Part shown: in pieces, positions 4,026 through 37,855 of the stretch | Layout: each line of letters opens with the position of its first letter | How positions within the stretch are numbered: position 1 is the first letter of the stretch | DNA from: a virus | Direction: 5' to 3' (one strand) | DNA: 40,049 nucleotides | Virus record (IMG/VR): IMGVR_UViG_3300042261_000601 | Location: 1-40,049 of that record | Program-made: the position numbers and the translations under genes | The notes under the pieces: model-generated | The model's database searches: none | What the model saw: only the letters and a program-made list of their open reading frames with translations | What the model was told of the DNA's origin: nothing

Positions 4026-4437
4026 ACATCTCCCTCGCCTGCTCCCGCGTTACCATCACCGTCTCACCAGTCGGATCGCACTGAAAAGCCTCGTACTCGG
4101 CGCAAACAGCGTCAGCAAACGCCTTCGCAGCCTTACGCATCGCTTCTGTTGGCTCGGTCACATCGCCTTCCGAGTCTCCGAATTCCGAGTCCAGATCGGA
4201 GACCATGTCATCCAGAGCATTGTCGGCGAGACGTTGGGCGTGACTGGTATGGTCCATGCGCCGGAAAACCAGCACCGTCATCGGCCACTCCATTCTGTCG
4301 GCAATCACGTCGAATTCCTCACCAGCATGGCAACAGTTTTCCTCCAACACTCGGTCCACAACATTTTCAACCTCATCTTCCAACCGATCCCACTCGCTCA
4401 ACCCGTAGTACCGTTCTGATTGCGTCGCGTCGATCAT
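4018..4437 (-). CDS. Acidic hypothetical protein (139 aa)
   Basis: The start overlaps the VRR-NUC stop (ATGA). The protein is strongly acidic, with a DLDSEFGDSEGDVTEPTE stretch in the middle and a helical C terminus. No motif is recognised. The charge suggests a partner-binding or DNA-mimic role, but that is inference from composition only. Confidence 0.7.
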   Translation of the reverse strand: MIDATQSERYYGLSEWDRLEDEVENVVDRVLEENCCHAGEEFDVIADRMEWPMTVLVFRRMDHTSHAQRLADNALDDMVSDLDSEFGDSEGDVTEPTEAMRKAAKAFADAVCAEYEAFQCDPTGETVMVTREQAREMFE

Positions 4438-4805
4438 ACAGCCTCCATAAACTCTCGCAGGCTGCGGACCACCACGTACGCATGCCCGAGCCTCTCCAGG
4501 CGCGCCTTGACGGCTTCCTGCTCGCTGGTGAGCTTGCCGGTGCGGGTCTTACACTCGACCCACAGCACCCGGCCCCCGTCCATCGCGATAACGAAGTCGG
4601 GGACGCCGAGTGCGGTGGTTGTGGGGCGATCCATGCGTGAGTGCACGACGTACCATCGGCGCTGGGTGCAGGCGTCCAGGATCTGGTCGTGCAGGTCACG
4701 CTCGCGCTCGGTCGATTTGCCGGCGGCCGGCGACGGGCTGAACAGGTGGGGGTTGAGCCTGAGAAACTCCGGGCTGCCGCCTATTATGTCTGATAGTGTT
4801 TTCAT
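4434..4805 (-). CDS. VRR-NUC domain nuclease
   Basis: A 123-aa protein with GVPDFVI near 67-73 and LWVECKTRTGKLT near 81-93. It has the PD-(D/E)xK core (Asp70, Glu84, Lys86) of stand-alone viral VRR-NUC nucleases, which cut branched or structured DNA. The family is common in phage replication operons as a Holliday-junction-type resolvase or processing nuclease. The 5' leader carries the first hairpin of the repeat array, and no clear Shine-Dalgarno is visible before the ATG. Confidence 0.88.
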   Translation of the reverse strand: MKTLSDIIGGSPEFLRLNPHLFSPSPAAGKSTERERDLHDQILDACTQRRWYVVHSRMDRPTTTALGVPDFVIAMDGGRVLWVECKTRTGKLTSEQEAVKARLERLGHAYVVVRSLREFMEAV

Positions 4806-4824
4806 TCTGTGCTATTCACGAAAG

Positions 4825-5542
4825 CTTCGGGCGGACTGCCGCCCGTGTTGTTGCCCCGCCCCGCCGCGCCAGGCCATGCCCTGCCTGGCCTTGCCGAAAT
4901 CTTCTCCCCCTTTCGGGGGAGTGTTGTTGCCAAGCCGCGCCATGCCTTGCCTTGCCCCAGCCCCGCCCCGCCGAAATCTTCTCCCCTCGAGGGGGAGTGT
5001 TGTTGCCACGCCCGGCCTGGCCTCGCCAGGCCATGCCTTGCCTCGCCAGGCCCCGCCGAAATCTTCTCCCCTCGAGGGGGAGTGTTGTTGCCGCGCCCAT
5101 GCCCCGCCTCGCCTCGCCTCGCCAAGCCCGGCCGAGCCGAAATCTTCTCCGGGGTTTGACCCCCGGAGTGTTGTTGCCAAGCCCCGCCATGCCCAGCCTC
5201 GCCTCGCCAAGCCCGGCCGAGCCGAAATCTTCTCCCCTCGAGGGGGAGTGTTGGTGCCAAGCCCATGCCCAGCCGCGCCGGGCCTCGCCTGGCCTGGCCT
5301 TGCCAAAATCTTCTCCCCTCGAGGGGGAGTGTTGTTGCCGCGCCCATGCCACGCCTCGCCTCGCCTCGCCTCGCCGAGCCGAAATCTTCTCCCCTCGAGG
5401 GGGAGTGTTGTTGCCAAGCCCCGCCATGCCCAGCCTAGCCCCGCCTGGCCGCGCCGAAATCTTCTCCCCTCGAGGGGGAGTGTTGGTGCCTCGCCCAGCC
5501 ACGCACCGCCACGCACCGCCTTGCCAAGCCCGGCCGAGCCAA
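4825..5542. repeat. Array of nine hairpins separated by (NNGCC)n pentamers
   Basis: Each unit has a left flank GAAATCTT (GAAAGCTT in the first), a stem-loop, a right flank TGTTG(T/G)TGCC, and about 8-11 copies of the degenerate pentamer NNGCC. Hairpins start at 4828, 4904, 4981, 5066, 5147, 5232, 5313, 5389 and 5464, roughly 76-86 bp apart. Most stems are CTCCCC-TCGAG-GGGGAG. Others are CTCCCCC-TTTC-GGGGGAG (4904), CTCCGGGG-TTTGAC-CCCCGGAG (5147) and CGGGCGG-ACTG-CCGCCCG (4828). Both arms change together, so structure rather than sequence is kept. The array fills the gap between two minus-strand genes and would be transcribed as (GGCNN)n RNA. Confidence 0.92.
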
Positions 5543-5545
5543 AAA

Positions 5546-6055
5546 TCACTTGAGCAGTTTGGGTGCATTTTTCTCGACCCACTTGCCGATTGACTGCTCA
5601 CGCCGCAGCAACACTAGACGCGTGCTGGCGATGCGGAGTGCAGATTCCATTTTGCTCTTGTCAGCGTCTGAGAGGTTGGCGTCTTTGTTGGCCAGCGTCA
5701 GAGCACGAATGTTGACCGATCGCCGGGCGTAACGGTTCATCTTGCCCTCGAACATTCTGGCGACACCCTCATGCTCGCTGGCGGCAGGAATGACCCACTG
5801 TTCGACCCTCTTTTTCTCGTTCTCCAGGTCGATGGTTTGCGCTCGCAGGTAGTATCCATCCTCGGCTTCCATCGCGGCGCGAAGATCCATCATGCCGAAG
5901 GCGAAGTCGGCGGTGTCGCGTTTTGCTGCGAGGAGCTTCTCGAAGAACGGGGTATCCCAGGTTGCTCCGTACCCGTACGTTTCCTGTGCGCGCATGGTTG
6001 CGATAGCGACGCGCCACGGTGTTTCCTTGGTTATCTCAGATATGTCGTTTGTCAT
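5546..6055 (-). CDS. Conserved phage protein of unknown function (169 aa)
   Basis: The ATG at 6055 follows GGGAAGGATC, a good ribosome-binding site. The upstream frame runs through the repeat array and is not coding. The protein is helical, rich in arginine/lysine toward the C terminus, and ends KNAPKLLK. From memory it resembles replication-region phage proteins without assigned function. It is flanked on both sides by hairpin/NNGCC repeats, one hairpin lying about 20 nt before its start codon and the array beginning right after its stop. Confidence 0.75.
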   Translation of the reverse strand: MTNDISEITKETPWRVAIATMRAQETYGYGATWDTPFFEKLLAAKRDTADFAFGMMDLRAAMEAEDGYYLRAQTIDLENEKKRVEQWVIPAASEHEGVARMFEGKMNRYARRSVNIRALTLANKDANLSDADKSKMESALRIASTRLVLLRREQSIGKWVEKNAPKLLK

Positions 6056-6065
6056 TTTGATCCTT

Positions 6066-6430
6066 CCCAAATCTTCTCCCCCTTTCGGGGGAGTGTTGTT
6101 GCCCCGCCAGGCCCAGCCGAGCCGAGCCAAGCCAAGCCAAGCCCCGCCCTGCCAAAATCTTCTCCCCTCGAGGGGGAGTGTTGTTGCCTTGCCCATGCCC
6201 GGCCGCGCCGGGACTTGCCGCGCCGTGCCCCTCCGCGAAAGCTAACTGCTGCGGACCCGAAGATCCGCAGTGTGTTAGATGTCGCCCAGACTTGCATCGC
6301 ATTGCCCCACCGCTGCCATTGCTTGCCATTCCAGACCCGACCTTGAAAGCTTCTCCCCCATCGCTGGGGGAGTGTTGTTGCCACGCCCCGCCTCGCCCGG
6401 CCATGCCTGGCCCAGCCAGGCCTCGCCGAA
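6066..6430. repeat. Second hairpin/(NNGCC)n array, three units
   Basis: Hairpins of the same family start at 6076 (CTCCCCC-TTTC-GGGGGAG), 6162 (CTCCCC-TCGAG-GGGGAG) and 6353 (CTCCCCCA-TCGC-TGGGGGAG). Each is followed by TGTTGTTGCC and NNGCC pentamers. A 110-bp stretch at 6235-6345 lacks the pentamers and holds an inverted repeat, CTGCGGA...TCCGCAG (6249-6270), with no convincing gene. The array ends immediately at the stop codon of the gene at 6433-7017. Confidence 0.9.
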
Positions 6431-6432
6431 AA

Positions 6433-7017
6433 TCACTCGCTCACAGTCTCGACCGTGAACCGCCCGAACTTGGGACGCCAGTCCCCGAGCCCGATCAGCG
6501 CCCCGGCATCGACCATCGCCTTCACAAGGTTCTTCTCGTTGATGATGCTCTCATCATATTCAAGAGTGAACGTGAGCAACCACCCGGTCGGAAACATCGG
6601 ACGAATCCGAATGATGCGCGATTGCTGCACCGCAACCCCCTTGCGCAGCGTGAATCGCGGGTCCTGCTGGAGCTTGCGCTTGTCCCGCGGGCCTTCGTAC
6701 TCCAGCCTGACTTGAGCATCCGAGCAGAACACCGCGGCCTGCACGTCCTTCCCGATGCGGGACTTCTGCGCTCCGAGTTGGATACACCGCTCGATGTTGT
6801 CGGAGGGAATCACAGGGCCGATAGCGTCGTCCCAGTACAGCCCAGCCTCCCACTCCAGCCTGTCACGCTCCTCATAGTCGGAGTCCGTGAGCTTCTTAGA
6901 GCCCTTGCTGGTGATCTCCTTGATCCGCCGCACCGTCGGGTTGGTGGGGTCTGCCATGAGCCCGTTGTGCATTACGATCGGCCTGATCCCGGTCCATGTG
7001 GTGGCGATGGTTTTCAT
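6433..7017 (-). CDS. Conserved phage protein, possible RAMP/Cas7-like fold (194 aa)
   Basis: The start is the ATG at 7017, two bases after the upstream stop (TGACATG). The sequence begins with a strand and GIRPIVMHNGLMADP. It has a central LEYEGPRDKRKL segment, then SRIIRIRPMF, and ends IGLGDWRPKFGRF. That layout resembles a phage family I recall as unannotated. The glycine-rich GLGDWRPKFGRF end is reminiscent of RAMP proteins, which is inference only. It lies next to the helicase and nuclease genes, so a nucleic-acid-binding role is plausible. Confidence 0.65.
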   Translation of the reverse strand: MKTIATTWTGIRPIVMHNGLMADPTNPTVRRIKEITSKGSKKLTDSDYEERDRLEWEAGLYWDDAIGPVIPSDNIERCIQLGAQKSRIGKDVQAAVFCSDAQVRLEYEGPRDKRKLQQDPRFTLRKGVAVQQSRIIRIRPMFPTGWLLTFTLEYDESIINEKNLVKAMVDAGALIGLGDWRPKFGRFTVETVSE

Positions 7018-35580: not shown

Positions 35581-37445
35581 TTGTCCTCCATTGGTATTGA
35601 TAACAAGCCGAAAAACATAGCAGCCGCAACCTGCTGCACCTCGCAGTCAAACAGATGGTTCGGCCACCGATCGCTGCGCAAGTGCCACTCCCACACTGTG
35701 CGCCCGTTGCGCTTGTTCCTCACCTCAGTCTTCACCTCCCCATCCATGTGCCGCCAATACTCAGTGGTAGCCATCGCCTTCGATACCGACCACTCAACCC
35801 GCGTGTCCTTCGAACGGGCCGGGTCGCGCATCGCGGACAACACGTCCTTGAAGAAGTCGCCAGAGAACTCGAATAGCGACATGTCAACTTGCCCAGCATC
35901 CCCTGTCCCTGAGAATGGATCTATGTTCCTGAGATAGTATGGAAGGTGCTGGCCCTTCTCATCGCGCCACCGCCTCCGACTGGGCATGCCCTTGGCCGGC
36001 ATCCACCCCAGGCACAGCGGGCGCCTGTCCTTGCCCTGCGGGACAATCGCCCCAAATCTCGCGCAGGTGCGGTAAACCTCCGCGTCATCGCGGGCACCAT
36101 AGCCAGAGTCTACCACAACCCCAACGTCGTGGACACCGTTGGCAACCTGGATGTCCCGCAGATCCTCCCACGTCTCGCACGATCCAGCCACGATCCCGCA
36201 AGATGCCGCAGTGTCCCCAGGCTCCCATTGCCGCACCACATACCAGAAGTGCGGACTCTTCGCCTGGCAATCCACTGTCATTATCCGCCGGCTGCCGGCT
36301 CCAGCCTCGCGTGCCATCTCCGTGATGATTTCGACACGCTGCGTCAACGTGTCCTGATTCTCCCACGGCTCGGCAAGTTCGTTCGTGACGAACCCCTTGA
36401 GCCCTAGCAGGTTGGTCTTGGCCTGCAAGAACCGCACCGCGATTGCTCCCCATGATGTCTGAGGAGAACAAGAGTAGAGGCTTGGCAGGTGGTAGCTGCG
36501 ACACCCCGCGGCGCCTGATGCCGTCGGCCGCCACTCGCCAAACCTCACCATCCTCGTCTTCGAGCTGTCGTGGATCTGACTCTGACAGTGCGGGCACGTC
36601 GCCACAGTCTGCCTGCTCACCGCGTCCAGATCCCACGTCCCGTCCGGCCGCCGGCACGATGCAGGCCACGAGATGAACGCTGTGTCAGCCTCAGGGAAGA
36701 TGGTGAACTCCTTGGACCATGCGAGCACAAAGAACTCACCGCAGGCTGGGCATGGGAGGTAGTAACGCCGCTGGTCCCCATTGCGAAACGCCACCCAGAC
36801 CGCGCCGGACGATATCGTCGGCGTGCTGGTCTTGACCCTCAGCGGCATCGGCTGTGCCTTTGTCCTCGCCTCCAACTGCTCGACCGCCTGCGCTTCCCGC
36901 TCAGTCTCGTCCCCCAACTTGTCAACCTCGTCCATCACCACCTTTCTCGCTGGCCTCGAGGATGTATTCGCTGGACTGTGTGAGCCAACGAACGTGAGCA
37001 GGCTGCCGCCCAACGCCATCTGCATCGTCGTATAGGTACTGCGTTTGACGTTGCCAATCGGGACACGGCCCCGCAATGGCGCGCTCGCCTCGACCATCGG
37101 ACGAAACCGCGTGGTCGAGAACGACCGCGCCAACACCTCGTTCGGCATCGCCCAGAGGATTGTCGATGGGTCCTCACACAGCGACCACGCCACCCCCGCC
37201 ATCACCATCGTCGTCTTGCCTGTCTGAGAACCGAAGCACAGCGCAAGATCCGTCACGCCTGGCGTGTTGAACGCGTCCAGCGGCTCGCGCAGGTACTCGT
37301 ACCCGGCCCACCCCACCGGCCCCGGACCAGTCGGCGGCGGGATTACCAGATGCTCCGAACACCACTCATGCACCGGCCGGCGGTCCGGCGGCGTGAGCAA
37401 CTCGCGTTGCAGGATCAAGAGCCGGTTGCGCTGGTCGGGGGTCAC
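35577..37445 (-). CDS. Large terminase subunit, GpA family
   Basis: 622 aa from a GTG at 37445, with GGAGGAG right before it and GTGA overlap with the small subunit. Walker A GSQTGKTT at 72-79, Walker B KVVMDEVDKL with Asp172/Glu173, and two CxxC pairs (CPACGEFF, CPHCQSQ) as in lambda GpA-type terminases. It cuts concatemers and pumps DNA into the prohead. The nuclease domain is in the C-terminal third (VVVDSGYGARDDAEVYR). The upstream in-frame ATG at 37487 overlaps the small subunit and is less likely. Confidence 0.92.
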   Translation of the reverse strand: MTPDQRNRLLILQRELLTPPDRRPVHEWCSEHLVIPPPTGPGPVGWAGYEYLREPLDAFNTPGVTDLALCFGSQTGKTTMVMAGVAWSLCEDPSTILWAMPNEVLARSFSTTRFRPMVEASAPLRGRVPIGNVKRSTYTTMQMALGGSLLTFVGSHSPANTSSRPARKVVMDEVDKLGDETEREAQAVEQLEARTKAQPMPLRVKTSTPTISSGAVWVAFRNGDQRRYYLPCPACGEFFVLAWSKEFTIFPEADTAFISWPASCRRPDGTWDLDAVSRQTVATCPHCQSQIHDSSKTRMVRFGEWRPTASGAAGCRSYHLPSLYSCSPQTSWGAIAVRFLQAKTNLLGLKGFVTNELAEPWENQDTLTQRVEIITEMAREAGAGSRRIMTVDCQAKSPHFWYVVRQWEPGDTAASCGIVAGSCETWEDLRDIQVANGVHDVGVVVDSGYGARDDAEVYRTCARFGAIVPQGKDRRPLCLGWMPAKGMPSRRRWRDEKGQHLPYYLRNIDPFSGTGDAGQVDMSLFEFSGDFFKDVLSAMRDPARSKDTRVEWSVSKAMATTEYWRHMDGEVKTEVRNKRNGRTVWEWHLRSDRWPNHLFDCEVQQVAAAMFFGLLSIPMEDK

Positions 37446-37855
37446 TTGATCTCCTCCCTGATGGTCTTGAGTCCGTTGTCTACCCACGATTGAATCTGAG
37501 ATCTCGCGTGCTCCGGGTCTGTGGGGTTGACCCGGGCAGCGAGTACGGCCGGAGCCGACAACAGCAGATCCCGGACGGGGAGCAGCGTGGACCGGATCAT
37601 TGCCTCGGCCTCGCCCATCGGCACCAACTCGCGCCGCGCCTCAGCGTTCGCCAGCCGCAGCTTCTCCGCCCGCTCCTGGTCCACCGCTATCCGCGCAGCA
37701 GTCTCATCCCCATAGAGCGCATCTATTAGTTCCTTGAGAGTGAAGCCGTCAGTTCCGCCGTGCTTGATGTCAACCCCGTTGCGCAGCAGACCTGACCTCA
37801 CCGTGGCCGGAGACCTCCCTAGCTCGTTCGCGAATGCTGAGATGGTGAGCTTCAC
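37442..37855 (-). CDS. Small terminase subunit, Nu1-like
   Basis: 137 aa from a GTG at 37855 that overlaps the stop of the 53-aa gene (GTGA). A GTG at 37873 is the alternative. KLTISAFANELGRSPATVRSGLLRNGVDIKHGG is an N-terminal HTH, as in Nu1. A central coiled coil (IAVDQERAEKLRLANAEARRELV) is the subunit-assembly region. It binds the packaging start site for the large subunit. Confidence 0.82.
   Translation of the reverse strand: MKLTISAFANELGRSPATVRSGLLRNGVDIKHGGTDGFTLKELIDALYGDETAARIAVDQERAEKLRLANAEARRELVPMGEAEAMIRSTLLPVRDLLLSAPAVLAARVNPTDPEHARSQIQSWVDNGLKTIREEIK

Follow-up and report, generated by a model that had tools for sequence, protein, structure and literature searches.

A phage locus of pentamer guide arrays with covarying hairpin tails beside a Vipr gene, read as a VIPR system

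Tandem hairpins that keep their flanks while changing their stems raise the question of which molecule they serve, and how. Such hairpins fill two gene gaps in the window, the whole 40,049-base virus record analysed here, which carries tailed-phage genes (terminase, portal, head protease, exonuclease, RecT-like protein, helicase and primase). A search for its host gave no match, and terminase and portal are at most 30% identical to those of known phages. The initial annotation counted 12 hairpin copies with common flanks and five stem types. All are present, in gaps at approximately 4820-5542 and 6068-6429, and the flank TGTTGKTGCC occurs 12 times on the forward and 0 times on the reverse strand of the 40 kb record. 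The bordering stop codons (5546 and 6433) and start codons (4805 and 6055) are also where they had been placed, in genes that all lie on the minus strand.

Five-base repeats and hairpin tails of the two arrays

The spacers between the hairpins are built of strict five-base repeats, GCCNN, which read GGCNN on the coding strand. Four such repeats running, GCCNNGCCNNGCCNNGCC, are matched 61 times against 0.06 expected, and all of these matches fall in the arrays and on the coding strand only. GGC is constant, while the NN positions range over all 16 dinucleotides; NN is rarely TA, because of which the array is open in all three frames. Each unit consists of a guide of 9-11 repeats followed by a 3′ tail, giving 12 clear units and a divergent 13th (Table 1). 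In the longer array the tails recur every 75-86 nt, each after a guide and on the same strand. Since the genes lie on the minus strand, the RNA would read GGC-AACAACAC-TCCCC-loop-GGGGA-GAAGATTT-CGGC. A six-base unit, ATGGGC, stands in place of a pentamer right before the last repeat in the guides of units 3, 7, 8 and 10, and a simple code leaves it unexplained.

Table 1. Genes and vrRNA units of the locus, in window coordinates
Feature	Position	Strand	Details
vipr gene (RAMP protein, 194 aa)	6433..7017	-	phmmer, profile, AlphaFold/Foldseek
vrRNA unit 1	6345..6429	-	guide 6380-6429, tail 6345-6379 (CTCCCCCA/TGGGGGAG)
Unit 2, divergent 13th tail	6241..6278	-	CTAAC-ACA-CTGCGGA..TCCGCAG-CA-GTTAG; decayed guide upstream
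vrRNA unit 3	6154..6231	-	guide 6186-6231, tail 6154-6185
vrRNA unit 4, directly upstream of vap-like gene	6068..6155	-	guide 6101-6155, tail 6068-6100 (CTCCCCC/GGGGGAG)
vap-like accessory gene (169 aa), between the two arrays	5546..6055	-	iterated profile, hhalign
vrRNA unit 5	5456..5542	-	guide 5488-5542, tail 5456-5487
vrRNA unit 6	5381..5457	-	guide 5413-5457, tail 5381-5412
vrRNA unit 7	5305..5382	-	guide 5337-5382, tail 5305-5336
vrRNA unit 8	5224..5306	-	guide 5256-5306, tail 5224-5255
vrRNA unit 9	5139..5225	-	guide 5176-5225, tail 5139-5175 (CTCCGGGG/CCCCGGAG)
vrRNA unit 10	5058..5140	-	guide 5090-5140, tail 5058-5089
vrRNA unit 11	4973..5059	-	guide 5005-5059, tail 4973-5004
vrRNA unit 12	4896..4974	-	guide 4929-4974, tail 4896-4928
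vrRNA unit 13, upstream of VRR-NUC gene	4820..4897	-	guide 4853-4897, tail 4820-4852 (CGGGCGG/CCGCCCG)

The tails fall into two subtypes. The window type has one hairpin between AAC.ACA. and AAG.TTT, and the second adds an outer helix, with an internal loop that is almost always ACA/(A,C)A. The window tail folds as a simple hairpin under a folding method that excludes pseudoknots by design. The 13th tail follows the stem plan seen in related phages (fold z = -5.9), and both subtypes are thus present in the window. The proposal that both arms change together was upheld once the tails of related phages were added. In 14 window-type tails (alignment A4), 98.8% of cells are paired and covariation reaches 0.853 against 0.198 in shuffled alignments; in 16 outer-helix tails (A3), the corresponding values are 98.2% and 0.710 against 0.211, and in both sets 0 of 500 shuffles equalled the observed value. 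Sliding the pairing partner by 1-3 columns abolishes the signal. Because the tails were hand-picked as recognised hairpins, the paired-cell percentages favour structure, and it is the slide and shuffle controls that back the covariation. Independent contigs carry homologous arrays with other stems and guides, which rules out an assembly artefact. The hairpin is conserved as a structure on the coding strand of a minus-strand operon, and probably acts as RNA. Rfam gave no family at gathering score, hammerhead included, in the window and 18 related loci.

Both arrays open right after a stop codon with GATTTTY-GGC, the same as the GATTTCGGC junction within the arrays; a cut in GAUUU is therefore a reasonable inference. 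GAUUU fits the RNase E consensus RN/WUU. What is kept in the tail is its shape (stem, ACA/AA internal loop and 3′ GAUUU) and not its sequence, probably because the tail defines the 3′ end and gives processing, or the first protein, its anchor point. With the stem sequence free and the shape fixed, the tails provide a natural mutational scan of the features read by Vipr or by a processing enzyme.

The vipr gene, its neighbours and their distribution

VIPR (Viral Interference Programmable Repeat) was first described in a preprint of April 2026 (PMC13142463). In that account, Vipr is a RAMP protein held to predate CRISPR. A vrRNA has 9-16 GGY/NN repeats and ends in a structured 3′ tail; its NN bases recognise double-stranded DNA, one base being skipped between successive pairs; and vap genes accompany vipr. 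The natural targets given there are rival phages and satellites. The SUSP1 system was demonstrated to target DNA, and the guide code derives largely from work on two systems; seven VIPR types are distinguished (PMC13142463).

The product of the gene upstream of the first array matches PDB 36pp, "SUSP1 Vipr protein", by phmmer (E=7.4e-32) and more strongly as a profile (E=1.5e-55). Its AlphaFold model has a pLDDT of 96.8, and Foldseek returned Csm3/Cas7 chains as the best of 58 matches at E<=0.001. The protein has no Pfam match and belongs to phrog_4652, listed by PHROGs as of function unknown. By homology and modelling, the gene encodes a Vipr protein with a predicted Cas7/Csm3-like (RAMP) fold. 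That a RAMP protein reads the pentamers had been set down as a hypothesis ahead of the comparison with the VIPR preprint. In the Vipr tree the window protein groups with those of seven metagenomic phages (L262, L263, L265, L267, L269, L270 and L307; support 0.998), and this clade of eight is separate from Felixounavirus Vipr.

Exact patterns from the arrays retrieved two more phages of the same design, L055 and L261; in L261 the upstream gene is 73% identical to that of the window and is accompanied by eight hairpins with other stems. A search with the vipr gene itself yielded 32 phage loci, the nine closest of which have pentamer arrays on the coding strand, with hairpins of the same plan in those displayed. 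Scanning for eight GGCNN running gave at least 120 viral contigs. A profile search found a vipr homologue in 82 of the 120 array contigs listed and in 0 of 119 controls matched for total length, these controls being the viral matches of a long variable-gap pattern scan of viral and genome contigs, which gave mostly chance hits. On 80 of the 82 contigs the gene lies on the array strand, at a median distance of 20 bp from the array. The array is therefore tied to vipr. This survey of at least 120 further contigs shows that such arrays are common, and it provides a rule for finding them: a coding-strand GGYNN run beside phrog_4652.

The only blastn match of the window against plasmids and phages was Mycobacterium phage Mattes (NC_051681), found afterwards to carry vipr. 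In this cultured M. smegmatis phage (L294), vipr is gp52 (36965-37711, E=4e-33). The gap before gp51 holds about 40 GGCNN repeats in an array without annotation, its runs often parted by a single A (GGCAGGC). Mattes offers a tractable laboratory model. In L055, two vrRNA units and a vap-like gene (1494-2200) occur without vipr in a 29 kb contig; either vipr was lost to the contig end, or the element is a satellite that borrows Vipr.

Separators other than the window's hairpins are also found. In Actinobacteria phages and similar contigs, units are parted by elements resembling miniature tRNAs (T-arm GTTCGANTC plus an acceptor-like stem), as in Mycobacterium phage LittleE (L416, 3600-4020), L285 (6600-6850), L387 (1450-1830) and Gordonia phage Trine (L417, 3040-3100). 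ARAGORN called one of the L387 separators tRNA-Pro. This likeness points to RNase P or RNase Z as possible vrRNA-processing enzymes, and the elements are absent from the main text of the VIPR preprint (PMC13142463). Six further contigs (L383, L302, L325, L409, L396 and L388) have hairpin-free arrays with guide runs parted by fixed short words (TACCTCAG, GTTCAG, ACCGCA, GAGGAAC or a single A), the class of separator varying with the phage group.

The gene between the two arrays was named vap-like on its position and remote similarity. Its iterated profile reaches L415 3081-3531 (E=1e-8; hhalign probability 97.5, E=7e-12), the gene that follows vipr directly in Escherichia phage bumzen, a Felixounavirus related to SUSP1; from its position, this gene is inferred to stand where vap1 stands in SUSP1. 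The window protein is a distant relative: the likeness is seen with profiles only, and single-sequence BLASTP was not significant. Its model is mostly helical, and a fold search returned only insignificant matches, some of them to winged-helix regulators. After the second array, the gene at 4434-4805 encodes a VRR-NUC nuclease (PF08774, E=5e-6), which could be a second accessory protein or an ordinary phage resolvase.

Function of the arrays: a VIPR model and its rivals

At the sequence level, the locus has a Vipr RAMP protein, 9-11 repeats per guide (9-16 published), a 3′ tail and a remote vap match. Taken together, Vipr homology, the pentamer arrays and the vap-like gene point to a phage VIPR system, a reading we hold with high confidence. 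Sequence anatomy, tail covariation, the identity and predicted fold of Vipr and the link between vipr and the arrays are shown directly, while transcription, processing, formation of the ribonucleoprotein, target binding and silencing are extrapolated from the preprint's account. On this model, a single minus-strand transcript would span vipr, array 1, the vap-like gene and array 2, and cutting of the arrays would release 12-13 vrRNAs, in each of which 9-11 GGC/NN repeats form the guide and the fixed hairpin forms the tail behind it. One Vipr subunit would sit on every five bases of the guide, gripping GGC and leaving the NN pairs free. Under the published one-base-skip rule, these pairs would together recognise double-stranded DNA (NNxNNxNN...) in competing phages or satellites, whose transcription would then be blocked.

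Guide targets were sought in IMG/VR with patterns that follow the one-base-skip rule and fix 18 bases each; unit 11 gave 3 matches, unit 1 gave 2 and unit 9 gave 1. These numbers are about chance level and the contigs are unrelated, so that no natural target of these three units stands above chance in IMG/VR. For unit 11, the L418 match falls within an open frame whose wobble positions coincide with the skips, but the following NN is mismatched; for unit 1, the L422 match has the same frame open, and the opposite one as well; neither is evidence of targeting. Across 315 guide runs from all loci, allowing at most one mismatch, about 12 one-base-skip matches were found against 5 with shuffled guides, leaving out the hits fetched by the three guide scans. 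Skips of 0, 2 or 3 bases gave no excess over shuffled runs. The one-base-skip excess is weak, and it agrees in direction with the published rule.

Could the arrays instead act in cis? They lie directly before start codons, and triplets set a constant two bases apart recall TRAP sites, as would suit pentamers that bind a ring- or filament-forming TRAP-like protein and control the translation or stability of the operon mRNA, with no DNA targeting. We regard this as improbable: NN is free to vary, and phages differ in how many units they carry and in what order, as would be expected of guides. Moreover, the partner is a RAMP protein homologous to Vipr, and for SUSP1, whose system is homologous, DNA targeting has been demonstrated (PMC13142463). 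Still less probable is an expansion in gene gaps of a mobile, REP-like repeat or of mRNA-stabilising 3′ structures, as the near-identical intergenic hairpins of the window might suggest. In the longer array the copies come regularly every 75-86 nt, each behind a guide and all on the same strand, which speaks against it, as do the stems that vary while the flanks stay and the tight link to vipr. Tandem structured repeats with spacers also recall a Type III toxin-antitoxin or CRISPR array, which can practically be dismissed, the spacers being low-complexity GGCNN and the repeat unit different; general scans of the neighbouring proteins matched no Cas family and showed no ToxN-like gene, and Rfam gave no match. 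Array translation, G-quadruplexes, pentamers like those of SV40 T antigen and Rho or pausing signals were also considered, and were dropped after the identification of Vipr.

Three readings had been offered for the hairpins. The processed RNA spacer comes nearest to the VIPR reading, while a translation or termination element and a mobile repeat are not needed. What had been overlooked is the GGCNN repeats, the adjoining Vipr gene and the divergent tail at 6241-6278; the five-base repeats carry the array's information, and the neighbouring Vipr gene explains the array. The locus was recognised from the raw sequence of an uncultivated phage, and it brings to VIPR a separate clade in which each phage has 12-13 guides. 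This clade, with predicted hairpin tails where SUSP1 is reported to have a pseudoknot, is probably new. We also entertain, as a tentative and rather doubtful extension, that the clade forms a VIPR subtype with a tail class peculiar to it (stem conserved in shape alone, ACA/AA internal loop, 3′ GAUUU cut) and a large swappable guide set around vap; since tails of the two subtypes are mixed in one array, whole vrRNA cassettes would then be exchanged between phages.

Comparison with SUSP1 VIPR, class 1 CRISPR and TRAP

The window shares with SUSP1 VIPR the Vipr RAMP protein, GGY/NN vrRNAs with a structured 3′ tail, an array beside vipr and a vap gene. However, window Vipr is about 35% identical to the Felixounavirus homologues. 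The SUSP1 clade tail is reported as a pseudoknot, whereas tails in the window are predicted to be plain hairpins, or hairpins with an outer helix and an ACA/AA internal loop. Y is almost always C in the window, while GGT is common in the Felixounavirus locus. The guides, 12-13 in number, form two arrays around the vap-like gene, in contrast to one vrRNA upstream and three downstream in SUSP1.

With the Cas7/Csm3 backbone of class 1 CRISPR systems, Vipr shares the predicted RAMP fold and a glycine-rich C-terminal loop (G-L-G-D-W-R-P-x-F-G-R-F), and oligomeric binding of guide RNA would be expected of it. Unlike those systems, the window has no CRISPR repeats and no cas gene among the neighbours examined, and its guide is discontinuous, with a five-base register. 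The ((G/U)AGNN)11 sites of TRAP are likewise RNA triplets at a fixed short spacing, but both the triplet and the protein are different, and in the window it is the variable bases that carry information.
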